Assembly (NCBI GenBank): GCA_017515325.1
Contig: JAFWGA010000013.1
Location: 1 to 64,000, forward strand
Direction: 5' to 3'
Length of the DNA: 64,000 nucleotides
Source: Blautia sp.
GTDB lineage: Bacteria; Bacillota; Clostridia; Lachnospirales; Lachnospiraceae
A program made the translations under genes and the position numbers. The notes below the pieces were generated by a model. The model made no database searches. It was not told where the DNA came from and saw only the letters and a list, made by a program, of their open reading frames with translations. How positions within the stretch are numbered: position 1 is the first letter of the stretch; every line of letters starts with the position of its first letter. Shown here in pieces: positions 31,991-57,015 of this stretch.

Positions 31991-32086
31991 GTAAATGAAC
32001 AAAACGGTTCATTTTGATTCGTTTACTGCGACGATTTTACGCCGCTGCAAGCGGCACGATTCAGCAGTAAATTTGTGCATACTATA
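31991..32086 (-). repeat. Intergenic structured repeat family 1, copy A
   Basis: Nearly full-length copy in inverted orientation relative to copy E (56921-57015). It holds the GCCGCT/AGCGGC hairpin and the AGTAAATGAACAAAA / TTTTGATTCGTTTACT hairpin. It lies just upstream of the capE-like gene. Confidence 0.8.
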
Positions 32087-32106
32087 AGCAAAGGAGCAAA
32101 AGCAAG

Positions 32107-33171
32107 ATGCAGATTACAGAAGCCTTCAATGGCAAAACCCTTGTGATCACAGGAGGTACCGGCAGCTTCGGGTCAACCGTTCTGAAACATTTTCTCACCT
32201 CCGATATCGGAGAAATCCGCATCATAAGCCGTGATGAAAAAAAGCAGGACTGGATGCGGCATACATTACAGGCGCAATATCCTGACTATGCCGGAAAGGT
32301 CAGTTTTTATGTTGGTGATGTGAGGAACATTGACAGTGTCAGAGATGTGATGCACGGAGCAGACTATGTCTTTCATGCCGCTGCTCTGAAGGAAGTGCCT
32401 TCCTGTGAGTTTTTTCCGATGGAGGCGGTAAGGACAAATATCATCGGAACCGATAATGTGATCACAGCTGCTGTCGAGAACAGGGTGGAAAGGGTTGTGT
32501 TCCTCTCCACCGACAAGGCAGCCTATCCCATCAACACAATGGGAATGACAAAGGCTGTCGGGGAGAAGGTCGTCCAGGCCAGGGCACAGAAGGCTTTTGA
32601 ACGGGGAGGCACGGTTTTGGCCTGTACACGCTACGGAAATGTGATGTGCAGCAGAGGCTCTGTCATTCCTCTTTTCATTGATCAGATCAAACGGAAGGCT
32701 CCGATTACCATTACCGATCCAAAGATGACACGTTTCCTGATGAACCTGGACGAAGCCGTAGATCTGGTAGCCTTTGCCTTTGAACATGCTGAGCCGGGCG
32801 ATCTTTTCATCCAAAAGGCTGACGCCAGTACGATCGGGGATCTGGCTGACGGGGTGATGAAAGTATTCGGGGAAACGGAGAAAAAAATCATCGGTTCCAG
32901 GCATGGAGAAAAACTGTATGAGACTTTGATGACGAGAGAGGAGAGGCTTCGCAGCGTTGACATGGGTCATTACTTCCGGATTGCTCCCGATGCCCGCGGC
33001 CTTAACTATGATAAGTTTTATGTCGAAGGTACCGTGGCTACGGAAGGGGAAGAGGCCTACACTTCTCACAACACGCATCGGCTTGATGTTGACGGCGTGG
33101 TCAGAAAGATTATGGGAACGGACTATGTGAAGGAAGAACTGGAAGGACGGCCGCATACGGTGGAGGTTTGA
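32107..33171 (+). CDS. capE: UDP-N-acetylglucosamine 4,6-dehydratase-type polysaccharide biosynthesis protein
   Basis: A 354-residue CapE/WbjB/FlaA1-type SDR enzyme. NAD(P) loop VITGGTGSFGSTVL, DVRN acid, catalytic LSTDKAAYPINTMGMTKAVG with Met-x3-Lys instead of the Tyr-x3-Lys of other SDRs, a mark of the CapE/FlaA1 group. RYGNVMCSRGSVIP follows. It would make UDP-2-acetamido-2,6-dideoxy-hexos-4-ulose for surface glycans. No other glycan genes flank it. RBS AAAGGAG 9 bases upstream; a family 1 repeat stands just before it. Confidence 0.82.
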   Translation: MQITEAFNGKTLVITGGTGSFGSTVLKHFLTSDIGEIRIISRDEKKQDWMRHTLQAQYPDYAGKVSFYVGDVRNIDSVRDVMHGADYVFHAAALKEVPSCEFFPMEAVRTNIIGTDNVITAAVENRVERVVFLSTDKAAYPINTMGMTKAVGEKVVQARAQKAFERGGTVLACTRYGNVMCSRGSVIPLFIDQIKRKAPITITDPKMTRFLMNLDEAVDLVAFAFEHAEPGDLFIQKADASTIGDLADGVMKVFGETEKKIIGSRHGEKLYETLMTREERLRSVDMGHYFRIAPDARGLNYDKFYVEGTVATEGEEAYTSHNTHRLDVDGVVRKIMGTDYVKEELEGRPHTVEV

Positions 33172-33223
33172 CAGCGGCAGGATTCTTACCAGGAGACTGA
33201 AAGGAAGAAGATTTGGGAAAGAA

Positions 33224-33256
33224 AGCCGCCGGGCTGGCAACCTGGCGGCTTGTTTT
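33224..33256. terminator. Terminator between convergent capE-like and garR-like genes
   Basis: AGCCGCC/GGCGGCT stem with inner GGG..CCT pairing, followed by TTGTTTT. Confidence 0.7.
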
Positions 33257-33283
33257 GGCAGTGGCGCAATGTGGTTTCACCTG

Positions 33284-34180
33284 TTATCCGAGCTTTCTCA
33301 TTTCAACTCCGGTGAGTTTTTCATAGTATTTGAGAATCGCGCTGTGGTCGTCGCTCCCGCAGTCGTTATTGTGCAGCCACTGGAGCATTTCCTGTACGGC
33401 GCTTGTCAGGATCATGGGAGTGCCGACGCCATGACCGGTATCGAGTGCATTGTTCAGATCCTTGATATGGAGATCAATGCGGAATCCCGGTTTGAAATTG
33501 CCGTCCAGCATCATGGGAACCTTGGCGTCCATGACAGTGGAGCCGGCCAGGCCGCCGCGAATAGCGGCAAACACCTTTTCCGGATCGACGCCTGCCATGG
33601 TGGCGAGTTCAAAGGCTTCCGCACAGGCGGCGATATTGACTGCCACGATGATCTGGTTGGCCAGCTTGGTGGTATTGCCGGCCCCGTTTATCTCTCCGCA
33701 ATGGACAACAGAGGCACCGAGTACGCCCAGCAGATCCTTGTACTCGTCAAACAGATCCTTGGGTCCTCCGCACATAATGGATAAGGTTCCGTCTATCGCC
33801 TTGGGTTCTCCGCCGGAAACCGGAGCGTCCATCATACGGATTCCTTTTTCCGCGCATTTTTCCGCAATATCCTTCGACGCCAGAGGGGCAATAGAGCTCA
33901 TATCGATCACGACCAGGCCGGGCTTTGCTCCTTCGGCCACGCCGGCGGGGCCAAAGATAGCCTCCTTTACATGGGGAGAATTGGGTACCATGGTGATGAC
34001 AACATCGCTTTTCGAGGCGACGTCTGCATTGCTCTCTCCTCTGGCGGCACCGCAGGAAACCACATCATCCAGGGCATCTTTGGCAAAGGGGTCAAATGCG
34101 GTCACTTCATAGCCTGCTTTCAGAAGATTTTTGCACATGGGGCGCCCCATGATGCCGAGACCGACAAAACCGATTTTCAT
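33284..34180 (-). CDS. garR: GarR-like 2-hydroxy-3-oxopropionate reductase / beta-hydroxyacid dehydrogenase
   Basis: A 298-residue 3-hydroxyacid dehydrogenase family protein. NAD(P) loop MKIGFVGLGIMGRPMCKNLL, substrate block DAPVSGGEPKAIDGTLSIMC and catalytic Lys in GAGNTTKLANQIIVA are intact, as is the family length. Likely reduces tartronate semialdehyde or a related hydroxyacid; the symbol reflects the closest well-known family member, not proven substrate. RBS AAAGGAGGAA. Transcribed divergently from the RpiB-like gene. Confidence 0.85.
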   Translation of the reverse strand: MKIGFVGLGIMGRPMCKNLLKAGYEVTAFDPFAKDALDDVVSCGAARGESNADVASKSDVVITMVPNSPHVKEAIFGPAGVAEGAKPGLVVIDMSSIAPLASKDIAEKCAEKGIRMMDAPVSGGEPKAIDGTLSIMCGGPKDLFDEYKDLLGVLGASVVHCGEINGAGNTTKLANQIIVAVNIAACAEAFELATMAGVDPEKVFAAIRGGLAGSTVMDAKVPMMLDGNFKPGFRIDLHIKDLNNALDTGHGVGTPMILTSAVQEMLQWLHNNDCGSDDHSAILKYYEKLTGVEMRKLG

Positions 34181-34516
34181 GATATATTCCTCCTTTATAT
34201 CTATAATTCATCCCCTTGAGATATAGATAAGGATACAACAAATAGCGCTGTCTTTCAATGCCGTTTTACAGGAATCTTTTTAAAGATTCACCTGCAAAAA
34301 AATTCCAGGATGTCTATGACGGAGTAACAGGGAGGGGATCCATCACACGGTATAGGCAAAATAGCTAAAAAAATAGTGTTTTCAGCATTTATCTGTGATA
34401 TAATATAACTACTCAGGTCAGCAGTCTTTCCTTGCTGCCGGCTGCGGGTTATGAGAGCAGCATCCAATCGGATTCAGTCAGATATAAACATATGTTGATA
34501 GAGGAGGATAAATGAG
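34181..34516. promoter_or_regulatory. Divergent promoter region, garR-like and rpiB-like genes
   Basis: 336 bases without a gene. Plus-strand TATAAT near 34397. A short palindrome GAATCTTTTTAAAGATTC lies at 34271-34288. No riboswitch recognised. Confidence 0.4.
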
Positions 34517-35158
34517 ATGAGAATCGCTTTGATCAATGAAAACAGTCAGGCCGCCAAGAACAGCCTGATCTATTCCGAGCTGAAAAAAGTAGCGGATCAG
34601 CATGGCTATGAAGTGGACAACTATGGCATGTACAGTGCGGATGACCCGAATTCGATCACGTATGTGCAGTGCGGAATTCTGGCAGCCATTCTGCTGAACA
34701 GTGGGGCGGCTGATTTTGTCGTTACCGGCTGCGGCACCGGTGAGGGAGCCATGCTTGGCTGCAATGCTTTCCCGGGAGTACAGTGCGGCCATATCGTAGA
34801 TCCTGCAGACGCTTTTATGTTCAGCCAGATCAATGCGGGAAATGCGGTCGCCTTCCCCTTTGCCAAGGGCTTCGGATGGGGTGCTGAGATCAATCTTCGC
34901 TATATGTTCGAACGGCTCTTCGAAGTGGCTCCGGGCGGCGGCTATCCCCCGGAAAGAGTGGAACCGGAACAGCGCAATAAAAAGATTCTTGACGCAGTCA
35001 ATGAAGTAACCCATCGCGACATGGTGACTATCCTAAAGGAACTGGACCCGGCTCTGGCTAAGGGCGCTGTCTCCGGCAGCCGTTTTCAGGAGCTTTTCTT
35101 TGCCAACTGCAAAGATGAAAAGATAGCGGAGGCTGTCAGGGAGCTTCTGGCAAAATAA
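34517..35158 (+). CDS. RpiB/LacA/LacB family sugar-phosphate isomerase
   Basis: A 213-residue protein of the ribose-5-phosphate isomerase B family. Recognisable blocks are MRIALINENSQAAKN, GCGTGEGAMLGCNAFPG (the phosphate and active-site loop, with Cys in VTGCGTGEG as general base) and FPFAKGFGWGAEINLRY. It is longer than RpiB (about 150) and belongs to the 210-residue group of uncertain sugar specificity. GAGGAGG precedes the start. Followed by the cytidylate-kinase-like gene on the same strand. Confidence 0.82.
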   Translation: MRIALINENSQAAKNSLIYSELKKVADQHGYEVDNYGMYSADDPNSITYVQCGILAAILLNSGAADFVVTGCGTGEGAMLGCNAFPGVQCGHIVDPADAFMFSQINAGNAVAFPFAKGFGWGAEINLRYMFERLFEVAPGGGYPPERVEPEQRNKKILDAVNEVTHRDMVTILKELDPALAKGAVSGSRFQELFFANCKDEKIAEAVRELLAK

Positions 35159-35212
35159 AGGCTTTGGGGGTTTGTCGCAGCAGGCACGGTATTGCGGAAA
35201 GGATGGTTTGAA

Positions 35213-35851
35213 ATGAAAGAATATCCTATGGTCACGATCAGTCGTCAATACGGTACCGACGGGAATGCCATCGGAGACAAGCTGGCCAAAAAGCTTGGCC
35301 TGCCTTTCTATGACAAGGACATCATTGCGATCGCTTCCCACGAAACCAGCTATTCGGAGAAGGTTTTTGACGCGGCGGAGGAGACGGCTACCACGAAGCT
35401 GGGGTACGCTTTGGCCAATCGTTCCAATCGCATGGTTTATGGTATGCCCTTCAATGATCAGCTTTTCATGGTTCAGTCCGGTATCATCCGTACCGTGGCG
35501 GATCGTGGACCGGCGGTATTTGTCGGGCGTTGTGCGGATTATGTCCTGGATGGATATAAGCCTACAATCAAAATATTTCTGCAGGCCAGTCTGGAGGCCC
35601 GGATCAAAACAGTCTGCGAGCGGGAAGGGCTTCAGCCCAAGGAAGCCGAAACCCGGATCCGCCGACTTGACAAGGCACGCGCAACTTACTACAACTACTA
35701 TACCGACAGGAAATGGAGTGATATTGCCAACTATGATCTTGCCTTGAACGTCAGCTATCTGACCTCCGAGGCTGCGGCAGAGATCCTTGCCATGTTCATC
35801 CGGGAGGTTGTGGAAAAAAGCGAGATGATGAACAGTCCTACTGCAGACTGA
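35213..35851 (+). CDS. Cytidylate kinase-like family protein
   Basis: A 212-residue P-loop kinase of the cytidylate kinase 2 group. MVTISRQYGTDGNAIGDKLA replaces the classical Walker A (typical for this group), LGLPFYDKDII follows, FVGRCADYVL and DKARATYYNYYTDRKW form the lid. Very common in gut Clostridia; its substrate is unproven. The start at 35213 has AAAGGATGG upstream, better than the in-frame ATG at 35192. Confidence 0.82.
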   Translation: MKEYPMVTISRQYGTDGNAIGDKLAKKLGLPFYDKDIIAIASHETSYSEKVFDAAEETATTKLGYALANRSNRMVYGMPFNDQLFMVQSGIIRTVADRGPAVFVGRCADYVLDGYKPTIKIFLQASLEARIKTVCEREGLQPKEAETRIRRLDKARATYYNYYTDRKWSDIANYDLALNVSYLTSEAAAEILAMFIREVVEKSEMMNSPTAD

Positions 35852-35868
35852 CCATGAGATCTGGGTAA

Positions 35869-35909
35869 AACAAAGGGTATTGTCACTTCCTGTGGCAATG
35901 CCTTTTTTG
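35869..35909 (+). terminator. Terminator after the cytidylate-kinase-like gene
   Basis: Imperfect stem AAAGGGTATTGTCAC / GTGGCAATGCCTTTTTT. It is followed by TATCCCAGAGC, the first bases of repeat family 3. Confidence 0.7.
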
Positions 35910-35984
35910 TATCCCAGAGCTGCCGTAGGGAAGCTGCCACCGGATGGTGGCCGGCTTTGATCCCTGAACGGAGGGGGGAAGAGT

Positions 35985-38447
35985 ATGAGGAAACATCTTT
36001 CAACCATGTATCTGGACAAGGAGAAGGATATCGTTGTGGATCTGTATCGGGAAGGGGAGAAAATGTTTTACTGTCTTCGGACGCCCAATCACCGTACCGG
36101 GAATCTGATCACGAACTTTGCCCGTCTATGCTGTCTTCCTCTGTCTTTTGACGAGGAAGGACGAAAGGTGGTCTGGGGAGAGATTCCCTGCTACTATCAT
36201 GGCGAGGAAGGCTTGGTTTATGTGTTCCGTCTGGGCAATACGAAGATCGCCAATATTTCCCCGGAGGGGAAGGCACAGAGGAAAGCGTCTATTCCGGCTA
36301 TCTCCAAAACCCTGATGAGCCAGACAAAGGATTATATGCTTGACGAAATGCGGACCATCGTGAAAACCTACGTGCGCAAGGATGTCAAATTTACGACGGA
36401 TCTTCATACTCACATGAACGGTATCCTTGATCCGGATGTGCTGATTGCTTTGGGAATCCATCACCAGATCCGTTATCCCCTCTACTATGTGAAAAAGCTG
36501 GGTCTTCGTCTGACGGAGGATATGGAGAGAGATCTGAGGGAAAGACAGGAAAAGGTGGAGAGGCAGACGGATCTGAGCGGTCTGACAGGAAAATACAGAC
36601 AGCGAAGGATCGATGACAATACCTTTATCAATTTCGCTCGACTGATACTGGGGAATCTTTCTGCAGCCGCTTATAATATCGATCGCATCCGGGTTTCTCT
36701 TACGGTTCCCAAGGATGGTCAGGCTGTTTTTGCCAATCTGGAAAAGGTTTATCTGTATCGGTACGTGTTTACGAAAGGTCTGCCCGCCGATATTCCCTGG
36801 CCGGGAAGGGAAAAGGAAGGCGTGCCAGAGGATGTGGCCGGATATTTAAAACGGATGGAGGAGGATCGCCGTAATCCAGACTATGCGGATAATACCCTTT
36901 TCCAGGATAAGCTGTTGTGGATCGCCAGAACGTATCAGAGCCGTGGAATCCACTATGTGGAGATCTCTGATACTTCTTTTTGCAAGGAAGGCGAGGCCAT
37001 ACAGAAACTTTCTGCCATTCATCAGGTCATGCCGGCGGTTACCCGGGAGACAGGAGTCCTTCTTCGCTTTCTGGCGGGGATAAGAAGAATCCCGCTGACC
37101 ATTGTAAAGGATAAGGTTGAGACGGGGGGATATCTGGCGGAAAGCCTGAGGGTCATCAGTGCGGTCTTTGAGGATCCTTATCTCGCCGGGGCGGATATCC
37201 TGGGCGAGGAGATCAATGACATCACGGAGCTTTCTCCGGTCATCGGGGAACTGGTGGGACTTTGCAGAAAGGATCCGACCTTCGTGATCCGCATTCATGC
37301 GGGGGAAAATGACGCCCTGAGGGACAATGTGGCGAATTCGGTTCAGTGTGTGATCGATGCCTTGTCTGACGGGCAGGACATGCCCAGGCTGCGGATCGGC
37401 CATGGGCTTTATACGGCGAATCTTTCCTCCGGGAAGGGAAAGAAGCTGCTGGAGGACTTGCGCCGATATGGGGTTGTCCTGGAGTTCCAGATTACCTCCA
37501 ATGTACGGCTGAACAATCTGACAGGGCTGGAAAATCATCCTCTTCGACGGTATCTGAGGGCGGGAGTTTTATGTGTGCAGGGCACAGATGGCGGAGCTCT
37601 TTATGGCACAGACAGTGTCGACGAGGAGCTTTCCCTGGAAAGATTTCTGGGATTGACGCATGAGGAGCTTCTGGCTATGCGAAGGACCGATGCGCGTCTG
37701 GAAAGAGAGGGAATCTCCGCTTTTGAAGAAAAGACGCGGCTGTTGGCAAAAAGGCTGGGAGAAGAAAAGGAAAAATCTTATCTGACCAGGAGACTGGAAA
37801 AAAAAGACTCCCAGGACCAGGAAAAGCTGTGGCTGGGAGGGGAAAAGACAGGGGCGTCCCTGGCATTGGCAGAGGCCATTTCTCAGATTCCCGAGGAGGG
37901 AGTTCCCGTCATTGTGGCAGGAGGGAGCTTTTCCAGTGACCGGCACAGGACAGTTCTGCGGGAGGAGGGAAAGCTTTTGCTGGAGAAGCTGGTGGCAGGA
38001 GCCGGTGGGACAGGCGCCTTTTTTGTGATTGGCCACAGGCTTACCGGCTATGAGGCTTATGTTCTCAGACTGGCAAAAAAGGCGGGTATACCGGTTTTTG
38101 CTTTCGTTCCCTCTATGGTGACCGGAAGGGAAAGAGAAAGGCTTTTAAAGAGTGGAGTAAAAGTGAGGGTTTCCATAGAGCCCTACGGAGTAGGGCTCTA
38201 TAAAAGTGTTGCCTATGAGGTATTTAAAAGAAGATACAGTATCCTGCTGGCACTGGATGGAAGCGGGGGCGCCGCTAATCTGGTACAGGAGGCAAAAAAC
38301 GCCAAGTATCCCTGCTCCATCTATGTAGATCCCCACTGCCGGGCATTGCGGGCCAAGGCCAGGTCACTGACCGGCTATGTTTCCCTGCTGGGGGAGCCGG
38401 GTGAGGATGCGGCCGGGATTTTGGAGAAGATGAAAACAGGTTATTGA
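35985..38447 (+). CDS. Adenosine-deaminase-like protein fused to a C-terminal SLOG-like domain
   Basis: An 820-residue fusion. The adenosine/AMP deaminase core keeps the metal HxH in TTDLHTHMNG (about 139-145), HAGE (about 438) in IRIHAGENDA, RIGHG, TSNVRL and the Asp of GTDGG (about 531). Compared with a 340-residue deaminase it has about 120 extra residues between the HxH and the first barrel strand. From about residue 620 a Rossmann-like nucleotide-binding region follows (VPVIVAGGSFSSDRHRTVLR, FVIGHRLTGYEAYVL, LALDGSGGAANLV), resembling SLOG/LOG domains. Deamination of a purine nucleoside or nucleotide signal is inferred. Its end overlaps the convergent kamA-like gene by 7 bases. Confidence 0.78.
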   Translation: MRKHLSTMYLDKEKDIVVDLYREGEKMFYCLRTPNHRTGNLITNFARLCCLPLSFDEEGRKVVWGEIPCYYHGEEGLVYVFRLGNTKIANISPEGKAQRKASIPAISKTLMSQTKDYMLDEMRTIVKTYVRKDVKFTTDLHTHMNGILDPDVLIALGIHHQIRYPLYYVKKLGLRLTEDMERDLRERQEKVERQTDLSGLTGKYRQRRIDDNTFINFARLILGNLSAAAYNIDRIRVSLTVPKDGQAVFANLEKVYLYRYVFTKGLPADIPWPGREKEGVPEDVAGYLKRMEEDRRNPDYADNTLFQDKLLWIARTYQSRGIHYVEISDTSFCKEGEAIQKLSAIHQVMPAVTRETGVLLRFLAGIRRIPLTIVKDKVETGGYLAESLRVISAVFEDPYLAGADILGEEINDITELSPVIGELVGLCRKDPTFVIRIHAGENDALRDNVANSVQCVIDALSDGQDMPRLRIGHGLYTANLSSGKGKKLLEDLRRYGVVLEFQITSNVRLNNLTGLENHPLRRYLRAGVLCVQGTDGGALYGTDSVDEELSLERFLGLTHEELLAMRRTDARLEREGISAFEEKTRLLAKRLGEEKEKSYLTRRLEKKDSQDQEKLWLGGEKTGASLALAEAISQIPEEGVPVIVAGGSFSSDRHRTVLREEGKLLLEKLVAGAGGTGAFFVIGHRLTGYEAYVLRLAKKAGIPVFAFVPSMVTGRERERLLKSGVKVRVSIEPYGVGLYKSVAYEVFKRRYSILLALDGSGGAANLVQEAKNAKYPCSIYVDPHCRALRAKARSLTGYVSLLGEPGEDAAGILEKMKTGY

Positions 38448-39541: not shown

Positions 39542-39600
39542 AGGCTCCTCCTTCCACAACGCGCTGCAGAGAAATAAAACTTCCTGCATGAATATAGTAG

Positions 39601-39650
39601 TATGCGCACGAATATACTGCAGAATCATGCCGCCTGCAGCGGCATAAATT
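39601..39650 (+). repeat. Intergenic structured repeat family 1, copy C (hairpin 1 only)
   Basis: TATGCGCACGAATATACTGC, then ATCATGCCGCCTGCAGCGGC, matching the left half of copies D and E; the second hairpin is missing. Confidence 0.7.
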
Positions 39651-39834
39651 CGTTTCCTATATTATGCAATACTAATTATATATAAAACAAACAAGAACTG
39701 TCAAGTCTGCCCTGTTTCTGGCTTTCCGTTTTTGTTCTGACGGAAAAAAGAGTAAAAGAGGGCACAGCCTCCGGCAGATAATTTCATACGTTCTGACAAG
39801 GGATAAGATTCTTGAGCCATTTTTTTTCTTCAAA

Positions 39835-39867
39835 AAAAGCGGTACCCAGGAATGGGTACCGCTTTTA
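39835..39867. terminator. Bidirectional terminator upstream of kamA-like, downstream of ferredoxin
   Basis: AAAGCGGTACCCA / TGGGTACCGCTTTT with four-base loop, A and T runs on both sides. It terminates the minus-strand ferredoxin transcript. Confidence 0.8.
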
Positions 39868-40010
39868 CAGATCCAGAGTCGTGCAAAGAAAGCAATCGCG
39901 GACGCATACGGCTCGGGGAGAGGGTAGAGAGCCGAATGTGTCTTTCTTTGCCCTTTTTAAGGACTGAGTTATCGTTTCGAACGGGTCAGAAAGACCGGAA
40001 ATGACGGATA

Positions 40011-40406
40011 TCAGCTCACAGAAATCTCCAGAATATCCATAGGACATACGGCTGCGCATTTGCCGCAGGCAATACACTTGAAGGCGACCTCGAAGCCCTC
40101 GGGCTTGCGGATCACGTGGAAAGGACAGGCATCAATGCAATCTCCGCAGCCATTGCAGAGCTTTTTATTCACCATATATACACCCTGCTTATTCTGGATG
40201 ATGGCGTTATTCGGACATGCCTCAGCGCATTTTCCGCACTGAACGCAGGTTGAGGGGCGGGTTTTTGTGGGATCCTGTTTGGTGGGTATGATACTTAAGG
40301 CCGCAAAATCCGGGTTGCTTACTTTGAAATAAGTCTCTGCGCATTCCATGACGCAGGCCAGACAGTTCATACATTCAATGCTTTTATTCACTTTCAGCCT
40401 TTTCAT
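40011..40406 (-). CDS. Polyferredoxin-like 4Fe-4S protein
   Basis: A 131-residue ferredoxin with several Cys clusters: CMNCLACVMEC at the N-terminus, CVQCGKCAEACP, CNGCGDCIDACP and CIACGKCAAVCP. The last three are full CxxCxxCxxxCP motifs that can hold at least three [4Fe-4S] clusters; a fourth would use the first cluster. An electron-transfer subunit without a partner in the next genes. RBS AAAGGAGAA on the minus strand. Confidence 0.88.
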   Translation of the reverse strand: MKRLKVNKSIECMNCLACVMECAETYFKVSNPDFAALSIIPTKQDPTKTRPSTCVQCGKCAEACPNNAIIQNKQGVYMVNKKLCNGCGDCIDACPFHVIRKPEGFEVAFKCIACGKCAAVCPMDILEISVS

Positions 40407-40503
40407 ATGCTATTCTCCTTTCATAACGCACACTGTTCGTTCGCTCAATGCTGTTAAGCAAACGCAACAGACGTTATTCTGTTCAGTCATATTTTCACTG
40501 CCA

Positions 40504-42213: not shown

Positions 42214-42530
42214 AGTCTTTTCCTCCTTTTCTTGTAAGACCCGCACAGTTACCTTGTCTTTTACTATATGCTTTCGTATGTCAAAGTGCAATTCTGATGC
42301 GGAAAGAATATATTCCATTTTGGAATAGCAGATAAATGGGATCGGGATATGACAGCATCGCTGCAGGTATCGACTCAACGCTTTATGCTTCGTAGTTGCC
42401 ATTGTAGTTTTCTTCCCGAAATGATAGAATAGAAATATAGCAAACGACATTATTTTTGTCGTTGACGATAAGCCTTCAGGTAACATGTTATAGGGGGATG
42501 CTTTTCTCCGGAACCGATTTGAGGTTTAGT
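42214..42530. promoter_or_regulatory. Divergent promoter region, glycosidase and LysR genes
   Basis: 317 bases. AGCAAACGACATTATTTTTG with TCGTT after it (42439-42465) resembles the second hairpin of repeat family 1. TTCCATTTTGGAATAG near 42313 is a small dyad (TTCCATTTTGGAA) that could be a LysR site. No gene seen. Confidence 0.4.
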
Positions 42531-43415: not shown

Positions 43416-43818
43416 CTGGCGCATTTTACATGAGACGATAAGAGCCTGCGCCTGTTTATCCTATTTTGAGCTTGCATGGACTGGTTTTTGTTGTATAATA
43501 GAATCTATAAATGCTATAGTCAACGGACAAGGCGGTTTCGCTCTGGTTCGTTTGCTGCGCCGGATTTTTATGATGCATCCATATATAACAAATGACAAGG
43601 TATTTTCTTTGTCGTTTACTGCGATGGGTTTATACCTCCTGCGGCGACATATCTGCCTATGCAAATCCGTGAACGCAATATGCTGTCGCCTTAGAGTGGA
43701 AATTCCGTAGGGTTCACTCCTGATCCGCTGCTTGTGGCAGAACATATGGTATCGGTAATCTTTACGGCGCGTGATGTAAACCGGTTAACGAAGAGATAAC
43801 AAAGAAAGGAAGACTAAG
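43416..43818. repeat. Intergenic region with two degenerate family 1 repeats (copies F1, F2)
   Basis: About 400 bases upstream of pgi. F1 (43517-43571): CAACGGACAAGG with CTGGTTCGTTTGCTGCGCCG. F2 (43588-43670): AATGACAAGG with TTTGTCGTTTACTGCG, then CTCCTGCGGCGACATATC. Both keep the second hairpin with different arm sequences. No gene seen; the pgi promoter must lie within or after these copies. Confidence 0.55.
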
Positions 43819-50150: not shown

Positions 50151-50377
50151 GATCTGAGGGATATTAGCAGGAGGATACAAAAAGAACTTCAGAAAAAAAC
50201 AGGGATTTGGATGGTATGCACAATGCATAACCTGGTCGCAATGACTAAAATAGTGCCATATTACAGATAATCTTCTGTAAACTGTAGTTGCAGGTTGTGA
50301 AAAATAAGACCCGTCCGGGATATCCTGACGGCAAGGCTTATGCTCGCACCGGTAGTTCTGAAAAAGGAGGAGTAAAA

Positions 50378-51775
50378 ATGGCAAAGGAAAAGAAACCATT
50401 GTCGACCGCGTTAAAAACCTTTTTTGGTGTTGGCGACCTGGGGTTTAACTGGATGACCAACATTGAGACCTATTATTATGCTTATTTCCTGACCAATGTC
50501 GCACAATTCCCCTTGGCTTTGGTCTCCCTGATTCAGACAGTGGGCAGCGTTGTGGATGCAGCTCTTTCCTGGACCTATGGCATCCTGCTGAACAAGATGA
50601 AGCCTATGAAATGGGGACGCTACCGCTCTATGCTCCTGGTCGTTCCCTGGCTGGTGCCCTTCCTCTTCCTCTTCCAGTTCAAGGCCTTTGGAACGGGAAT
50701 CGTCGGCGCTCTCATCATCATTCTCGGCTGCATTACCAGCCATATTGCCTGGAATATTCCTTATGTGGCAAATATGGCTATCATCAATGTGGCCTCCGGC
50801 AGCTCGGATGACAGAAATACCCTGTCTGCGATCAGAACACTGTGGACCTACATTGCCAGAATGACCTATTCCTATGTCGGCCCCGGCCTGGTGGCTTTCT
50901 TTACGGCGAAGCTGACGGCGAGCAATGCTTATGCGGCTACGGCCTTCGCCTGCGCTGCGGTTATGGTGGCGGGATACCTGGCACATTTCGTTATGTTTAA
51001 GGGCTATGAGGAGACAGGCGAGGAGGAGATGGCTCGTCTGGCAAAGCAGGCTCAGCATACAGAAGCCAAAGGCGGCAAGAAGGTAGGCATCTGGCAGGCA
51101 ATCGCTGCCAATCCTCAGATCCTCGGCGTTCTTCTTTCCTACCTTTTCTACATGATGTATTCCTTCTGCTATTCCGCTTTCGCCGTATACTATGGACAGT
51201 ATGTGGCTCTGGATCCGGGCTTTATGACCCGTTTCCTCCTGATCGCCAACCTGCTGGCTGTTCTGGGTTCCATCCTGGTGAAAAGGGTTGCCCATCAGTT
51301 CTCCTCCAAGGGAGCGTATCAGATTGCCCTGATCGGTATCGCGGTTTTGTATGTCCTGGCATATTTCTTCCGCAATAATCCGCTTCTGGTTATCATATTT
51401 ATGTCCATCGGCGGCTTTTTCACAGCATTCGCTACCGCTATGGTTATCCCCATGCTGGGCAACTGCGCTATCTTCAGTGAGTGGAAGACCGGTGTCAATG
51501 TCAACGGTGCCGTTATGGGCTTCTTCAATGTGCCGATCAAGGTTGCAGTCATCACCCGTGGTCTTTTGATCTCTGTTGTTCTTGGTATTACCGGATTTGA
51601 TGCCAGCATTGCTGTAGAGGAAGCAACGGATGCGGTTAAGAATGGCATTTCAGCCGGCTTTACCCTGATCCCTGCTATCCTGTGTGTGATTGCCCTTGTG
51701 ACCATCACCATCGGCTACAGGCTGAAGGAAGCGGATATCGAGAAGTATTCTGCTGAGATCAAGGCGAGAGGTTAA
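50378..51775 (+). CDS. MFS transporter (GPH sugar-cation symporter type)
   Basis: A 465-residue transporter with about 12 hydrophobic helices. FFGVGDLGFNWMTNIETYYY at the N-terminus and the loop KPMKWGRYRSMLLVVPWL are GPH/MFS_2 features; NIPYVANMAIINVASGSSDD RNTLSAIRT is the cytoplasmic signature. Substrate unknown; GPH carriers move glycosides with Na+ or H+. RBS AAAGGAGGAG before 50378. About 195 bases separate it from the UroD-family gene, likely one operon despite the repeat between them. Confidence 0.85.
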   Translation: MAKEKKPLSTALKTFFGVGDLGFNWMTNIETYYYAYFLTNVAQFPLALVSLIQTVGSVVDAALSWTYGILLNKMKPMKWGRYRSMLLVVPWLVPFLFLFQFKAFGTGIVGALIIILGCITSHIAWNIPYVANMAIINVASGSSDDRNTLSAIRTLWTYIARMTYSYVGPGLVAFFTAKLTASNAYAATAFACAAVMVAGYLAHFVMFKGYEETGEEEMARLAKQAQHTEAKGGKKVGIWQAIAANPQILGVLLSYLFYMMYSFCYSAFAVYYGQYVALDPGFMTRFLLIANLLAVLGSILVKRVAHQFSSKGAYQIALIGIAVLYVLAYFFRNNPLLVIIFMSIGGFFTAFATAMVIPMLGNCAIFSEWKTGVNVNGAVMGFFNVPIKVAVITRGLLISVVLGITGFDASIAVEEATDAVKNGISAGFTLIPAILCVIALVTITIGYRLKEADIEKYSAEIKARG

Positions 51776-51783
51776 GCTTTATC

Positions 51784-51889
51784 TATGCGCACGAATTTAC
51801 TGTGGAATCATGCCGCTTACAGCGGCGTAAATTCGGGGCAGTAAACGCTTTTGCGGGAGCGCTGAGGGAATGGCCTTCCGCAAAAGCGG
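51784..51889 (+). repeat. Intergenic structured repeat family 1, copy D (variant second hairpin)
   Basis: TATGCGCACGAATTTACTGT, then GCCGCTTACAGCGGCGTAAA and GGGGCAGTAAA as in copy E. The second hairpin has quite different arms, CGCTTTTGCGG (51846-51856) and CCGCAAAAGCG (about 51878-51888), which are still complementary. Confidence 0.8.
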
Positions 51890-51969
51890 ACTTGGAAATG
51901 TCTGATACCCCGGTTATATGGAGCGGTTCCCGGATTGAGAAGGGGAGCCTGGAATGGAGGAAAAAGAAT

Positions 51970-53010
51970 ATGTTAACAGCAAGAGAAAATTTCTTCGAGT
52001 GTATCAAAGGTGGAAATCCTGACCGTTTTGTCAACCAATATGAATTTATCCGTCTTCTGATGAATGCCAGCGTGCTTCACAGCAAACGTCCCAAGAGGGG
52101 AGAGCCGGACTGCGCCAATGCCTGGGGCGTAACCTATAGCTTCCCGGAGAATGTGCCGGCAGGTTTCCCGGTTCATACGCCGGAGAAGGTCGTCATCAAG
52201 GATATCGAGGAATGGAAAAAATACGTAAAGGCTCCATCGCTGGATTTCCCGGATTCAGAATGGGATATGTTCAAGGAGCAGTATGACGCAGTAGATACCA
52301 GCAAGGCGTTGAAGGCAGCTTTTGTGGCACCCGGCCTCTTTGAACAGTGCCATCACCTGGGCGAGATTGTCAATACATTGATGAATCTGGCTGAGTACCC
52401 GGATGAAATGCACGACCTGATCAAGTATCTGACCGAGTATGAGCTGCGTCTGGCAGAACTGATCTGCGACAAGCTGCATCCCGATGCCCTTTTCCATCAT
52501 GATGACTGGGGCGGGCAGAAGTCGACCTTTATGTCCCCGGCTATGTTTGAAGAATTCTATGTAGAACCCTACAAGGAAATTTACGGCTACTATAAGAGCC
52601 ACGGCGTACAGGTCGTGATCCATCATTCTGACAGCTATGCGGCTACTCTGGTTCCGGATATGATCGAGATGGGCATCGATGTATGGCAGGGCTGCTTCTC
52701 TACCAACAATATGCCTGAACTGATCCAGAAGTATGGCGGAAAGATTTCCTTTATGGGCGGCATCGAGAATATGCTGGTGGACTATGACGGATGGAGCCGT
52801 GAGAAGATCCATGAGGTGGTCTACAAAACTATGGATGAGTGCGGCAACAAATATTTCATCCCCTGTATCGCACAGGGTGGTCCTGGCTCCGTTTATCCCG
52901 GTGTATATGTGACCATGGGCGAGGAGATTGACAGGTATAACTGTGAGAAGTTCGGACTGAGCCTGGATGAGATCAAGGCTAACCGTCTGGAAGAGATTAT
53001 CATGTTCTGA
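51970..53010 (+). CDS. Uroporphyrinogen decarboxylase-family protein (UroD/MtaA-like)
   Basis: A 346-residue UroD-fold protein of the kind annotated in gut Clostridia near corrinoid or glycoside genes. FHHDDWGGQKSTFMSPAMFE, EPYKEIYGYYKSHGVQVVIH and HSDSY, GMGIDVWQGC-type and GKISFMGGIEN blocks are typical. Heme biosynthesis is unlikely because no hem genes are near and the UroD Arg-rich N-terminus is absent; methyl transfer is the usual suggestion. Start at 51970 has GGAGG; the frame runs upstream through the repeat but without an RBS. Confidence 0.8.
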   Translation: MLTARENFFECIKGGNPDRFVNQYEFIRLLMNASVLHSKRPKRGEPDCANAWGVTYSFPENVPAGFPVHTPEKVVIKDIEEWKKYVKAPSLDFPDSEWDMFKEQYDAVDTSKALKAAFVAPGLFEQCHHLGEIVNTLMNLAEYPDEMHDLIKYLTEYELRLAELICDKLHPDALFHHDDWGGQKSTFMSPAMFEEFYVEPYKEIYGYYKSHGVQVVIHHSDSYAATLVPDMIEMGIDVWQGCFSTNNMPELIQKYGGKISFMGGIENMLVDYDGWSREKIHEVVYKTMDECGNKYFIPCIAQGGPGSVYPGVYVTMGEEIDRYNCEKFGLSLDEIKANRLEEIIMF

Positions 53011-53052
53011 TGCTTGGTGAGATCGGAAGTGTGGCTGATATCTGATGTTTGG

Positions 53053-53090
53053 GCCATGGCCGGGAGTTTTCCTGGCCATGGCTTTTCTCT
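53053..53090 (+). terminator. Terminator between UroD-family gene and trmD
   Basis: GCCATGGCC/GGCCATGGC stem with inner GGGAG..CCT, followed by TTTTCTCT. Confidence 0.75.
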
Positions 53091-53113
53091 GTTTGGGGAG
53101 GAGGAATACCTTA

Positions 53114-53779
53114 ATGCGGATCAGTGTTCTGACCATGTGTCCGGAGATGTTTGGGGATTTTCAGAAAACTCCTCTTATCTCTCGGGCGATGATATCCGGA
53201 AGGCTGCGGTTTGATGTGACGGATTTCAGGGATTTTACAAAGGGCAGCTTCAGAAGGATCGATGATTCCCCTTATGGGGGCGGGCCAGGAATGGTCATCC
53301 GCTGCCAGCCGGTTCTGGATGCCCTTCAGAGCCTGAGAGACCCTCAGAGCCATGTTGTTATCCTCTCTCCGGCAGGGACGCCCTTTACCCAGGCAAAGGC
53401 TCATGAATTGGCCGCAAGAGAGCATCTGATCCTGGTTTGCGGGCATTATGAAGGCTTTGACGCGAGGATCTATGAGCATGGGGATGAGATTATTTCCATT
53501 GGAGACTATATCCTCACAGGAGGAGAACTGCCGGCCATGGTAGTGACGGATGCCGTCGTCCGTTTACTGAAGGGAAGCCTCAGGGAGGGAAGCGCTTCAG
53601 AGGAATCCTTTGAGAAGGGTCTTTTGGAGTATCCTCAATATACCAGACCTGCCGATTATAAAGGGCAGAAGGTTCCGGAGGTTCTGCTGTCAGGAAACCA
53701 TGAAGCGATCCGGAGCTGGCGGGAAGAGGAGGCAAGGAGGCTGACAAGAAAGTACAGACCGGATCTGCTCAGGAAATAA
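53114..53779 (+). CDS. trmD: tRNA (guanine-N1)-methyltransferase
   Basis: A 221-residue SPOUT methyltransferase. DDSPYGGGPGMVIRCQPVLD, LSPAGTPFTQ, CGHYEGFDARI, EIISIGDYILTGGELPAMVV and LEYPQYTRPADYKGQKVPEV are the TrmD trefoil-knot and active-site blocks. It methylates G37 in tRNAs read with CNN codons. Normally in rpsP-rimM-trmD-rplS; here those neighbours are absent and it stands alone behind a terminator. Shorter than E. coli TrmD (255) at the C-terminus. RBS AGGAGG. Confidence 0.92.
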   Translation: MRISVLTMCPEMFGDFQKTPLISRAMISGRLRFDVTDFRDFTKGSFRRIDDSPYGGGPGMVIRCQPVLDALQSLRDPQSHVVILSPAGTPFTQAKAHELAAREHLILVCGHYEGFDARIYEHGDEIISIGDYILTGGELPAMVVTDAVVRLLKGSLREGSASEESFEKGLLEYPQYTRPADYKGQKVPEVLLSGNHEAIRSWREEEARRLTRKYRPDLLRK

Positions 53780-53843
53780 GCCGCCGGAGGCGGCGCAAAT
53801 CCGACACAGCAAACGACAAAGTGAGGGTTACTTTGTCATTTGG
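53780..53843 (+). repeat. Intergenic structured repeat family 1, copy G (partial)
   Basis: GCCGCCGGAGGCGGCGCAAA, ACAGCAAACGACAAAG and CTTTGTCATTT. The first hairpin and the second (ACGACAAAG/CTTTGTCATTT) remain with variant sequence; the left flank is lost at the trmD stop codon. Confidence 0.65.
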
Positions 53844-53845
53844 TC

Positions 53846-53874
53846 TTGACATTATCATGGACAGGCAGTAATAT
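53846..53874 (+). promoter_or_regulatory. feo operon promoter
   Basis: TTGACA (53846-53851), 17-base spacer, TAATAT (53869-53874). Confidence 0.75.
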
Positions 53875-53876
53875 CA

Positions 53877-53926
53877 ATCAGGAATAAGACATACCTAACA
53901 TATGTCTTGTTCCTGATATTTTTATT
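53877..53926 (+). promoter_or_regulatory. Leader hairpin at the feo start site
   Basis: A 17-base-pair inverted repeat (53877-53893 with 53901-53917, one G-T pair) around CCTAACA, then ATTTTTATTT. It begins at about +1 of the promoter. It can be a terminator/attenuator or the operator of an iron regulator: the centre ATACCTAACATA resembles half of a DtxR/IdeR-type site. Confidence 0.65.
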
Positions 53927-53956
53927 TCATAGAACAAACTTCAGGAGGGGATAATT

Positions 53957-54166
53957 ATGCCAGTCACCATGGCTTGTTTAGATGAAGTCGTAACCATTAC
54001 CAGAATATCAGGCAAAGATGAGGTCAGGCATCACCTCCATGAACTTGGGCTGATAGAAGGGGAGAAGATCACCGTTGTATCGAATAACGGCGGCAATGTC
54101 ATCCTCCAGGCCAAGGGTGTCCGTATTGCCCTGGATGAAAAAATGGCAAACCGCATCTATATCTGA
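53957..54166 (+). CDS. feoA: FeoA family protein (first copy)
   Basis: A 69-residue FeoA SH3-like protein (TRISGKDEVRHHLHELGLIE, then KGVRIALDEKMANRIYI). Helps FeoB in ferrous iron uptake. RBS AGGAGGGG. First gene of the feo operon, with a second FeoA 100 bases downstream. Confidence 0.9.
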   Translation: MPVTMACLDEVVTITRISGKDEVRHHLHELGLIEGEKITVVSNNGGNVILQAKGVRIALDEKMANRIYI

Positions 54167-54266
54167 CCGTCACTGTGAAGCGTAAAGTACTGAATGATTA
54201 CGGTTGGTCTGCAATACCCTTAGGGGGATGCTTCGGAATCATATGTGGAAAGGGGAATGAGAAAGC

Positions 54267-54488
54267 ATGAAAACACTCAAAGACATTGAGGTCGGAAAGA
54301 CCTGTATGGTCATCAGGCTGCACGGGGAAGGACCGGTTAAGCGTCGGATCATGGACATGGGAATAACAAAGGGTACCCAGATCCTGGTGCGCAAGCTGGC
54401 TCCGCTGGGAGATCCTATGGAGCTGAATATCAGAGGATATGAACTCTCTCTTCGCAAAGCAGATGCCGAACTGATCGAAGTAGAATAA
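54267..54488 (+). CDS. feoA: FeoA family protein (second copy)
   Basis: A 73-residue FeoA protein with VIRLHGEGPVKRRIMDMGIT and LNIRGYELSLRKADAELIEV. Sequence diverges strongly from the first copy, so it is not a recent duplication. It ends 23 bases before feoB. Tandem FeoA pairs before FeoB are common in Clostridia. Confidence 0.9.
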   Translation: MKTLKDIEVGKTCMVIRLHGEGPVKRRIMDMGITKGTQILVRKLAPLGDPMELNIRGYELSLRKADAELIEVE

Positions 54489-54511
54489 GAGGAAAGGACT
54501 AAAGGGGCAAA

Positions 54512-56803
54512 ATGAGTGTTAAAATAGCATTAGCAGGGAATCCGAACTGCGGAAAAACGACACTGTTTAATAGTCTGACCGGATCCAACCAGTATGTCGG
54601 AAACTGGCCCGGCGTTACCGTAGAAAAAAAGGAAGGTCAGCTCAAGGGACATGAGGATGTAATTATTCAGGATCTTCCCGGAATCTATTCTCTTTCGCCT
54701 TACACCCTGGAGGAGGTGGTCTCCCGACAGTACCTGGTAAACGAGAAACCTGATGCCATTCTGAATATTGTCGATGGCAGCAATATCGAGCGCAACCTCT
54801 ATCTGACGACTCAGCTGCTGGATCTGGGAATTCCTACGGTCATTGCCATCAACATGATGGATATCGTCAATAAAAACGGTGACAGGATTGATATGGCTGC
54901 TCTTTCCAAACAGCTGGGATGCCCTGTGCTGGCCATGAGCGCTTTAAAATCTGACGGTGTTCTGGCTGTTGCGGACGCTGTTGTGGAGGCGGCTGAGAAG
55001 GGCATGGCAGGAGAACGGCCTCATGTTTTCCAGGGAAGTGTGGAACATGCCATTGCCCATGTTGAGGAATCAATCGAGAATGTCATTTCAGACAGGAAAT
55101 ATCTGCGCTGGTATGCCATCAAGATTTTTGAAAGAGACGAGAAGGTCATGCAGGAGCTTACCCTTAGGCCGGACGTAGCTGAGGAGATTGAGCAGCATAT
55201 TCTCGACTGCGAGAAAGAAATGGATGATGATGCGGAGTCCATCATCACCAATGAACGTTACAATTATATCACAAAGGTTTGCATGGCTTCTGTTGTCAAA
55301 AAAGCACCGGCACACAGTCTGACCATCTCTGACAAGGTCGACAGAATCGTAACCAACCGTATCCTTGGTCTGCCTGTTTTTGCCGGTATCATGTTCCTGA
55401 TATATGCCATCGCGATGGGGGGGTGGAGCGTATCATTAGGAACCAGGGCAACGGATTTCACCAACGATGTGATTTTTGGCGAATGGGTTCCTGGCGCGAT
55501 TGACAGTCTTTTGGGATTTTTACATGTGGCAGAAGGAAGCCTTCTTTACGGCCTGGTACAGGACGGTATCGTTGCCGGTGTCGGTGCGGTTCTTGGCTTT
55601 GTCCCCCAGATGCTGGTTTTGTTCCTGCTTCTTTCCATTTTGGAGGACATCGGATATATGGCCAGGGTTGCCTTTGTCATGGACCGTGTTTTCCGTCAGT
55701 TCGGTCTCTCCGGAAAGTCCTTTATTCCCTGCCTGGTGGCTACCGGCTGTGGCGTTCCCGGTATTATGGCTTCCCGTACCATCGAAAACGACCGTGACAG
55801 AAAGCTTACGATCATGACGACGACCTTTATGCCCTGCGGAGCCAAGCTTCCGATTATCGGCCTGATTGCAGGCGCGATCTTCGGCGGGTCGCCTTTGATT
55901 GCAGCCTCTGCCTATTTTATCGGAATCGGTTCTATTATCCTTTCCGGCATTATTCTGAAGAAATTCAAGGTTTTTGCCGGTGAGCCTGCCCCCTTTGTCA
56001 TGGAGCTTCCGGCTTATCATATCCCGGCATGGGGGAATGTCCTGAGGGCGACATGGGAACGAGGCTGGTCATTCATCAAGCGTGCCGGTTCCGTCATCGT
56101 GATTTCATCCATCATCATCTGGTTCCTCAACAGCTTTGGCAGTATAGACGGACATTTCGGAATGGTGGAGAATATGTGGGAGGATGAAGCCATCGTCAGC
56201 GAGCAGACTGTGGCAGAGCTGGCCGAGCGCATGAGTGTTCCCGAGGAGGATGTCAATGCCCATGATGCCTCCTTGCTGGCGGCAGTAGGCAGCGCTGTCA
56301 GTCCTGTCTTCCGTCCTCTGGGATTCGGCGGCTGGAAACCGACAGTTGCCACCATTACCGGTCTGGTGGCCAAAGAAGAGGTTGTCGGAACCATGGGCGT
56401 GTTGTATAATTACGATGATTCGGAGGAAGAGCTGGGCGAGAATGGAGAGCAGATCTGGGACCGGGTAGCCAGGGATTATACGCCGGCAGCCGGCTTTGCC
56501 TTCATGGTCTTTAATCTATTGTGCGCTCCCTGTTTCGCCGCTATCGGTGCCATCAGGCGTGAGATGAATAACCGGAAGTGGACCTGGGCTTCCATCCTCT
56601 ACATGACTCTGTGGGCTTATACGCTGGCCTTCATTACCTATCAGTTTGCTTCCTTTTTCAGGGGAGAGATGGGCTTCGGTGTAACTACCGGTGTTGCGGC
56701 AGGTCTTCTTGCCCTGATTGTTTTCCTTCTTTTCAGAAAGGGCTATGTAGCGGATAACAGAAAACAGAGTCTGACCTCGGTGCAGGCAGCCAAGAAAAGA
56801 TAA
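54512..56803 (+). CDS. feoB: Ferrous iron transport protein B
   Basis: A 763-residue Fe(II) transporter. N-terminal G domain with G1 GNPNCGKTTLFN, G2 GVTVE, G3 DLPGIY, G4 NMMD; helical GDI-like domain; then two gates of membrane helices with the signature FIPCLVATGCGVPGIMASRT, conserved Cys in MPCGAKLPI, and NLLCAPCFAAIGAIRREMN. Full length. Imports Fe2+ across the cytoplasmic membrane using GTP. Coupled to both feoA genes. Confidence 0.96.
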   Translation: MSVKIALAGNPNCGKTTLFNSLTGSNQYVGNWPGVTVEKKEGQLKGHEDVIIQDLPGIYSLSPYTLEEVVSRQYLVNEKPDAILNIVDGSNIERNLYLTTQLLDLGIPTVIAINMMDIVNKNGDRIDMAALSKQLGCPVLAMSALKSDGVLAVADAVVEAAEKGMAGERPHVFQGSVEHAIAHVEESIENVISDRKYLRWYAIKIFERDEKVMQELTLRPDVAEEIEQHILDCEKEMDDDAESIITNERYNYITKVCMASVVKKAPAHSLTISDKVDRIVTNRILGLPVFAGIMFLIYAIAMGGWSVSLGTRATDFTNDVIFGEWVPGAIDSLLGFLHVAEGSLLYGLVQDGIVAGVGAVLGFVPQMLVLFLLLSILEDIGYMARVAFVMDRVFRQFGLSGKSFIPCLVATGCGVPGIMASRTIENDRDRKLTIMTTTFMPCGAKLPIIGLIAGAIFGGSPLIAASAYFIGIGSIILSGIILKKFKVFAGEPAPFVMELPAYHIPAWGNVLRATWERGWSFIKRAGSVIVISSIIIWFLNSFGSIDGHFGMVENMWEDEAIVSEQTVAELAERMSVPEEDVNAHDASLLAAVGSAVSPVFRPLGFGGWKPTVATITGLVAKEEVVGTMGVLYNYDDSEEELGENGEQIWDRVARDYTPAAGFAFMVFNLLCAPCFAAIGAIRREMNNRKWTWASILYMTLWAYTLAFITYQFASFFRGEMGFGVTTGVAAGLLALIVFLLFRKGYVADNRKQSLTSVQAAKKR

Positions 56804-56812
56804 TCGGAAAAG

Positions 56813-56852
56813 ACCCTGCCGGCGGATAAAAATGAATCTGCCGGCAGGGTTC
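56813..56852 (+). terminator. Terminator after feoB
   Basis: ACCCTGCCGGCGGAT/ATCTGCCGGCAGGGT, 15 base pairs with one mismatch, then a short pyrimidine tail. Confidence 0.75.
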
Positions 56853-56920
56853 CCTTTGCCTGGTTCGAATTTGGGAAACGAAGGCAGCAGGCCAGGCGCT
56901 TTCCCATGCGAAGACATGAA

Positions 56921-57015
56921 ATATGCGTACGAATTTACTGCGGATCATGCCGCTTACAGCGGCGTAAATTCGGCGCAGTAAACGAATCAAAATGCAAGTA
57001 TTTTGTTCGTTTACG
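56921..57015 (+). repeat. Intergenic structured repeat family 1, copy E (reference copy)
   Basis: Best-formed copy. Outer stem CGAATTTAC/GTAAATTCG encloses GCCGCT-TAC-AGCGGC (56949-56963); second hairpin GTAAACGAATCAAAAT/ATTTTGTTCGTTTAC (56978-57014). An alternative pairing, TTTACTGCG (56936-56944) with CGCAGTAAA (56974-56982), would exclude the outer stem. Confidence 0.85.

Follow-up and report, generated by a model that had tools for sequence, protein, structure and literature searches.

The question raised by this locus is what keeps the fold of a short hairpin element that recurs between genes while its sequence changes. The DNA in question is a Blautia sp. contig (JAFWGA010000013.1, assembly GCA_017515325.1; family Lachnospiraceae), of which positions 1 to 64,000 were analyzed; we refer to this whole stretch of 64,000 nt as the window. 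An original prediction, made from the letters alone, had described a dispersed intergenic element at several sites in the window, with hairpin arms that differ among copies and remain complementary. We confirmed the element at those sites, with limits corrected by covariance models, and found it throughout the genome. Between lineages there is strong support for the main point of the prediction, namely that the arms go on pairing as their letters change. What preserves the fold is the element's ability to spread, and inserted copies decay close to neutrally. The element is very probably mobile, and our preferred reading, held with moderate confidence, is that it is short, non-coding and non-autonomous and is moved in trans, most likely via a folded single strand.

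Architecture of the element

The main-family consensus is 103 nt long, starts with TATAGTAAACG and ends with GCGCATACTATA, and comprises two back-to-back hairpins between TATAG and CTATA. Hairpin 1 occupies consensus positions 5-41 and hairpin 2 positions 42-96; hairpin 2 contains a further, inner hairpin and bulges by 11 nt on the 3′ side. Many other lineages carry a long form of ~150 nt with a third hairpin, which reads, from 5′ to 3′, TATAG, hairpin 1 (of free sequence), hairpin 2 (a TGCGCCG stem, the inner hairpin, a one-sided bulge with TTTCC or TTCC, and the stem closing CGTGCGCA), a short TCC..GGAG stretch, and hairpin 3 ending in CTATA. The window's genome also has a second subfamily (L085, L091, L107, L117) that continues into TCC..GGAG and then hairpin 3, mostly ending in CTATA; hairpin 3 is absent from the main family of this genome, of G052 and of G074. 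A strict scan, from which three rows were left out as too short, detected hairpin 3 in 16 of the 39 lineages with enough downstream sequence, including G252, which has no TATAG-like end and where the hairpin may be a terminator. Six further lineages had a hairpin-3 score above each of 60 shuffles, and the remaining lineages had none. The features common to the genera are, in hairpin 2, TGCGCC at the foot with CG..CG higher up and TTTCC or TTCC in the bulge, followed by GTGCGCATCC; each has exceptions, and the stems and loops of every hairpin vary. The GCCGCT/AGCGGC hairpin, which had been described as fixed, is so in the local family, with different arms in other lineages.

Insertion sites are A+T-rich and intergenic, and the element is bounded by TATA or, in some lineages, TTAG. 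In a set of 76 copies drawn from three species, conservation of the TA letters is 89-95% at either end, with T preferred before (54%) and A preferred after (47%). Genomes G335, G411 and G470 have the end type TTAGGG...CCTTAG. There, TTAG reads in direct orientation in 9 of the 13 left ends and 12 of the 13 right ends, and a single G470 copy carries TTAA at either end. In G319, most left ends seen carry TATACTC or a close variant, and right ends, where seen, are mostly GAGTATA or a close variant. The three end types (TATAG, TTAGGG, TATACTC) switch together at the two ends, with an own match of 11.41 of 15 versus 9.51 when shuffled (0 of 5000 shuffles; 17 lineages). Base 6, next to the end, pairs in standard fashion with the opposite base of its hairpin in 41 of the 42 rows with letters there (types GC, UA, AU, CG, GU and UG). 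In 11 of the 13 lineages of the TATAG type, however, the left and right ends have different bases at this point, and thus pairing, not a shared terminal sequence, is constrained at this position.

Pairing is kept between lineages

The covariation between lineages was assessed in two ways. An anchor test, which needed no structural alignment, located the arms in 42 lineages by a fixed distance from linear anchors and scored each 5′ arm against the 3′ arm of the same lineage or of a different one. In hairpin 1, arms matched their own partners at 10.05 of 12 positions versus 7.46 (sd 0.19) when shuffled, and in hairpin 2 at 8.12 of 9 versus 5.81 (sd 0.18), with 0 of 5000 shuffles doing as well in either case; 24 representatives, intended to be one per genus, gave the same outcome. 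For hairpin 1 the best of seven start offsets was used, for own and foreign partners alike, and the anchor patterns were picked after the sequences were seen. The second test used a model-fitted alignment of 43 rows (A3). Covariation was seen at 38 of 40 pairs, and double-changed cells numbered 261 versus 68.7 ± 6.7 in shuffled data; the covariation score was 0.430 versus 0.143, slid versions reaching at most 0.093. Shuffle tests are also inflated by related sequences, and both tests have too few poorly paired relatives, since the model used to find the lineages rewards pairing.

Within a genome the picture is different. The differing arms inside the window, offered originally as covariation, mostly belong to separate subfamilies, and in 41 main-family copies from one genome covariation was weak, with 12 double-changed cells versus 7.1 ± 2.3 (18 of 500 shuffles) and with further pair types (180 of 500) and two-sided changes (66 of 500) unremarkable. 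We therefore place the selection on the spreading lineage. In the hairpin pairs of the 76 resident copies, 131 single changes break the pair and 87 give G.T, while double changes keep the pair in 21 cases and break it in 9; G.T and A.C occur at similar frequency, which is what an absence of constraint would give. Selection on structure, as it had been proposed, thus stands for the spreading lineage, with no visible action on each resident copy.

Copy number, distribution and placement

Searching the window's genome (G000; 3.31 Mb in 68 contigs, 87.7% complete) with a consensus derived from the window gave 40 scored copies, whose likeness to the query is 84-100%. Two covariance models were used, R1 from 41 main-family copies and R2 from diverse lineages, both with rough E-values owing to short calibration. 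R2 gave at least 93 matches at E ≤ 0.01 and at least 85 places at E ≤ 1e-3 in the whole genome, a lower bound because 150 of 1311 candidates were scored and a copy at 61830 in the window was not among them. In the genus, 10 of 64 genomes, the window's own included, had matches at E ≤ 1e-3 and 54 had none; three of the positives (the window's genome, G052 and G074) carry at least 62 copies each, and the other seven carry 1-10. In the family, matches at E ≤ 1e-5 were found in 24 of 397 genomes, own included, each from a different genus of 334. In the class, 4 of 391 genomes had matches, own included, the other three belonging to two further families. These distribution counts are minimum figures, as searches over 40 genomes ran stricter filters. 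Scanning named genomes with a pattern gave 13 stretches, which come from four genomes, all Lachnospiraceae: Blautia sp. RGIG513, uncultured Lachnospiraceae RUG11252 and RUG12824, and Lachnospiraceae bacterium MA2020. MA2020, which we take to be a cultured strain, has one copy in the 8-kb stretch examined, and as a carrier it may make RNA and DNA tests practical. Contigs of RUG11252 (L225, L228, L231, L232, L234, L235) end inside hairpin 2; the repeat probably breaks assembly, with copy numbers underestimated there.

None of 69 distinct places lies in the middle of an open reading frame (ORF), and 9 overlap an ORF end, which qualifies the original description of copies as always between genes. 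The ORFs are mechanical calls of at least 90 aa, so that a gene already cut by a copy would go unrecognized. The placement table has 70 rows, as the copy at 56917-57018 appears twice; that copy is outside the 46 rows, among 59 with two unflagged neighbors, that lie between codirectional genes. As predicted, both orientations occur, 31 copies being antisense and 15 sense to these neighbors (p = 0.026). One empty site was found: the gap orthologous to that of the L020 copy, between two genes, is empty in the six other genus members examined, and L020 was the sole one of 16 joined sites with single matches across the junction. Computational searches of the genome and its relatives, a step suggested with the original prediction, thus found neither confinement to the copies first listed, nor absence of covariation, nor placement inside genes. 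In two places (L177 150-560, G074:C8; and L282, G319:C263), head-to-tail copies share a TA-rich junction, reflecting either insertion at another copy's end or tandem duplication.

A proposed folded mobile element

In the mechanism that we consider best suited to these data, a protein supplied in trans would recognize the folded ends of one DNA strand, roughly like IS200/IS605 enzymes and REP-associated tyrosine transposases (RAYTs; REP, repetitive extragenic palindrome), would cut at the terminal tetranucleotide and would insert the element elsewhere, so that movement would be restricted to copies that fold. If only folding copies move, lineages keep their pairing while their sequence drifts, and inserted copies decay nearly neutrally. 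The hairpins stand directly inside a fixed terminal tetranucleotide, recalling the ends of IS200/IS605 elements and of REP doublets forming hairpins (REPINs), which is the basis for reading the movement as single-strand transposition. The keeping of the fold over diverging letters suggests that the mover reads the folded shape. That the constraint really stems from folding of a single strand we judge to be about an even call.

A number of observations weigh against this reading. Among 13 TATAG-type lineages, ends beyond the common core match no better than between lineages (1177 of 5000 shuffles). No strand is favored in resident copies (G.T 87 versus A.C 74, p = 0.34; by species 51/52, 27/13 in G052, and 9/9), and between lineages one strand is favored only weakly, both in the anchor test (31 to 23) and in the fitted alignment (62 to 26), where the fitting model may favor G.U. 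No duplicated flank was seen beyond the invariant TA/TATA in the 76 copies, and the empty gaps at L020 are too diverged for an exact join. Y1_Tnp (PF01797) had no match in the window's genome, at its 87.7% completeness, and was present in 14 and missing from 12 of 26 element-carrying genomes. Finally, 20 RAYT loci scanned with R2 at E ≤ 1 contained no element. The lack of significant strand asymmetry in resident copies does mean that the constraint need not be on RNA.

Candidate mobilizers were also sought by association. Y1_Tnp occurs in 37 of 64 genus members, in 6 of 10 positives versus 31 of 54 negatives (p = 1.0), and in G052 only as a fragment at a contig edge; RAYT or IS200/IS605 enzymes were rejected as general mobilizers on the lack of Y1 association and the absence of the element from all 20 RAYT loci. 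R1 found no element at E ≤ 0.05 in 31 loci around Y1 and DDE_3 genes, all 10 of its matches falling in the 13 stretches of named genomes. An all-against-all comparison of 1905 frames from 161 loci gave no obvious shared neighbor gene. The representatives of 10 recurrent clusters examined with Pfam included no transposase over its cut-off; they were an ABC transporter, a Mur ligase, a phosphotransacetylase and other ordinary genes, three having no family, and clusters beyond these 10 were judged from the start of one member; one IS110-type match, below the cut-off, lay inside a BcrAD ATPase. At L336 1087-2343 (G083:C20), a RAYT-like gene is flanked by its own palindromes (GGGGACGGGGTTAGGGGGT), apparently a REP-RAYT system unrelated to the element.

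Short bacterial repeats have mostly been recognized by their sequence. In this element the letters are replaced almost entirely from genus to genus, while the hairpin architecture and a few unpaired bases persist, and the family can therefore be traced beyond a plain sequence search. This makes it a natural data set for the needs of a structure-reading mobilizer, and the element points to a putative mobilizing enzyme in gut Lachnospiraceae. More tentatively, the copies may represent a mobile superfamily defined by its fold, in at least three families of Clostridia, with a mobilizer that is neither Y1/RAYT nor IS630-type and that recognizes a folded three-hairpin nucleic acid, possibly an RNA strand copied back to DNA in a bacterial counterpart of short interspersed nuclear elements (SINEs).

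Alternative explanations

The alternative that survives best, though we consider it unlikely, is an ordinary miniature inverted-repeat transposable element (MITE) moved by a DDE transposase with a TA target (Tc1/mariner-IS630 or similar), in which the terminal TATAGNAAACG repeats would be binding sites, the TA would be duplicated, and the hairpins would be palindromic binding sites. Such an element would account for TATAG/CTATA ends with conserved TA and the flanking T and A preference, for end types that change their terminal sequence in concert, and for adjacent copies joined via TA repeats, as at L282. However, DDE_3 (PF13358) had no match in the window's genome, other DDE families not having been searched, and arms vary freely with pairing kept even in hairpin 2, which holds no terminal repeat. 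In addition, lineages of another family (L284, L285, L287-L290) have the same architecture with no TATAG at their ends. As for an IS630-type mobilizer, this candidate was rejected because DDE_3 was unassociated with the element over the 64 genus members (3 of 10 positives versus 13 of 54 negatives, p = 0.70).

Less probable still is an RNA beneficial to the host, such as a processing site, an attenuator or a protein-binding RNA, that turned into a repeat and works in the mRNA at each copy. The intergenic placement, mostly between codirectional genes (46 of 59 unflagged rows), the deep structural conservation with a conserved unpaired TTTCC, and the G.U excess, seen in the fitted alignment across lineages and again among the copies of G052 (27 to 13), would fit such a role. 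Yet copies stand in both orientations with antisense in the majority, there is no significant overall strand asymmetry, the distribution is patchy, no obvious neighbor gene is shared, and no Rfam match was found in the window. The near-neutral decay of resident copies, with the fold kept via spread, is the main reason for preferring a mobile element over useful host RNAs. A promoter at the left end, with TATAGT as a -10 site, was also considered and rejected: 6 of 30 copies had a -35-like match, and so did 31 of 270 positions used as controls.

Quasi-palindrome template switching during replication, a known mutational process that copies one arm onto the other and could give covariation without selection, is very improbable here: it is in line with the slight excess of double changes even in decaying copies, but it should perfect the arms of old resident copies, in which pair-breaking single changes (131) far exceed pair-keeping double changes (21), the outer arms of hairpin 2 covary strongly despite being split by the inner hairpin and the bulge, and the bulge and TGCGC/GCGCA letters are conserved across genera.

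Comparison with known elements

Of known kinds of repeats, MITEs, Correia elements and REPINs are the closest. With 103 nt, no coding capacity, at least 85 dispersed places, none of 69 in the middle of an ORF, and terminal inverted repeats TATAG/CTATA, the element shares these features with MITEs in the broad sense. MITEs with a TA target, such as RUP and ERIC, are about 100-130 bp long, intergenic, and have TA-rich ends. Our element resembles them in length, ends and placement, and differs in that no autonomous partner was found in the DNA examined and in that the fold is kept better than the sequence between lineages; DDE_3, which would mark an IS630/Tc1-type MITE, is neither present in the window's genome nor associated in the genus. 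Palindromic elements derived from IS200/IS605 have hairpin ends with a fixed tetranucleotide outside each hairpin. The same arrangement is found here, in direct orientation in the TTAG type, but no Y1 was found in the window's genome and the presence of Y1 is unrelated to the element in the genus.

REPINs, in the available part of their description (PMC3116915), likewise have two inverted end hairpins and a short terminal tag, are intergenic and non-autonomous, and show compensatory changes in a spacer hairpin. In contrast to them, the element here has a conserved central hairpin 2, and its ends (TATAG, TTAGGG or TATACTC) do not carry the REP tags GTAG or CGTC named in the title of PMC3733652. 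It also differs from REPIN/RAYT systems: the window's genome gave no RAYT match, the element is missing from all 20 RAYT loci, and the RAYT of G083 has other palindromes.

Correia repeat enclosed elements (CREE, also NEMIS) of Neisseria, to which they are confined, are alike in being non-coding and dispersed, in starting with TATAG and in forming RNA hairpins, and their lengths of 104-108 and 153-157 bp are close to the about 103 and about 150 nt seen here (PMC2649163, as far as its text was available, for all statements on CREE). Their mobilizing mechanism is not settled there either. They differ in their interior apart from TATAGT and a short AACAAAA run, and the CREE repeat TATAG[CT]GGATTAA is not matched, since the consensus here starts TATAGTAAACG and other lineages start TATAGNAAACG. 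Target duplication is reported for CREE, whereas none beyond TA/TATA was seen in our 76 copies, the flanks of empty sites having diverged, and lineage-wide arm replacement with kept pairing is not described in that part of the text.

No Rfam 15 family reached its gathering score in the window, and none came near it for L256 and L264. No tRNA was found in the window or in 60 loci. A search of an open-access library listed no such element for Lachnospiraceae, subscription journals being mostly outside that search, and the available part of PMC10969869 has no occurrence of Lachnospir, Clostrid or Firmicutes.

Copies in the window and neighboring repeats

Within the window, R1 matched nine places with a cut-off of E 10, and seven of these had E ≤ 0.0011. 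The two full main-family copies are copy E (56917..57018, minus strand; R1 102.5 bits, E 9.7e-23; fold z -4.63), with hairpin 1 at about 57014-56978 and hairpin 2 at about 56977-56924, and copy A (31987..32086, plus strand; R1 89.8 bits, E 1.2e-19; fold z -4.10), downstream of which lies a Polysacc_synt_2 gene. A competing fold, TTTACTGC/GCAGTAAA, had been proposed for copy E; it is the predicted optimum in copy A, whereas that of copy E is the two-hairpin fold. The copy at 51779..51885 (minus strand; R1 61.0 bits, E 1.3e-12; fold z -5.13 for 51779-51890) has a normal hairpin 2 and, in place of hairpin 1, an unrelated longer hairpin. A subfamily 2 copy with GACAAAG/CTTTGTC in hairpin 1 (53746..53847, minus strand; R1 E 6.2e-9, R2 E 3.9e-11, fold z -5.97) overlaps the last bases of a tRNA m1G methyltransferase ORF. 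The four good copies, all complete or close to it, have fold z of -4.1 to -6.0, and 0 of 200 shuffles fold as well, which is also true of 61826-61926; five other stretches tested gave only -0.7 to -2.8.

The remaining sites are partial, decayed or divergent. At 39596..39653 (minus strand) only the right half is present, namely hairpin 2 and the right end (nhmmer E 1.3e-10 for 39598-39653; fold z -2.19 for 39596-39650). Of two elements predicted at 43517-43670, one is a truncated copy with hairpin 1 and a remnant (43515..43585, plus strand; R1 E 0.0011; fold z -0.72), and the other is weak, a doubtful remnant with a subfamily-2 hairpin 1 (43590..43677, plus strand; nhmmer E 0.23 for 43607-43677; fold z -1.39 for 43571-43677). 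A lone hairpin at 42437..42474 (minus strand; fold z -2.82), recognized from its letters, resembles subfamily-2 hairpin 3 or 1 and lacks hairpin 2. Two copies that the prediction had missed were added: a decayed full-length copy at 13439..13539 (plus strand; R1 E 8.1e-7, R2 E 2.4e-5; fold z -0.91) and a divergent member at 61830..61926 (minus strand; R2 E 1.3e-6 and sequence likeness; fold z -6.96 for 61826-61926), with other stems but with the TATTTCC bulge of hairpin 2 kept.

Several other repeats were seen beside copies. A second dispersed repeat with GTGACCGCACAGGTC-like sequence lies in the flanks of L024 and L027 and has matches in G052 and G074. A stretch with CAGCAGCCCACA or GGTCGGCAGCCCACA-like letters recurs in the flanks of L015, L098 and L117 and is perhaps a further repeat. 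Adjoining the 61830 copy, at 61700-61830 and downstream of a periplasmic-binding-protein gene, is a strong GGCCGGC...GCCGGCC hairpin with a T run, which is terminator-like. The GC-rich GGTGACATATTTCCTTTCGGCGCCCCTGCC (61826-61926, minus strand) also adjoins the copy in L085, in its left flank, and a GGGTAGAGG..CTCTACCC hairpin is present at 61830 as well as in L022, where it lies in the left flank of the copy at 916. The GC-rich repeat shared by 61826-61926, L085 and L022 may be another branch of the same superfamily.

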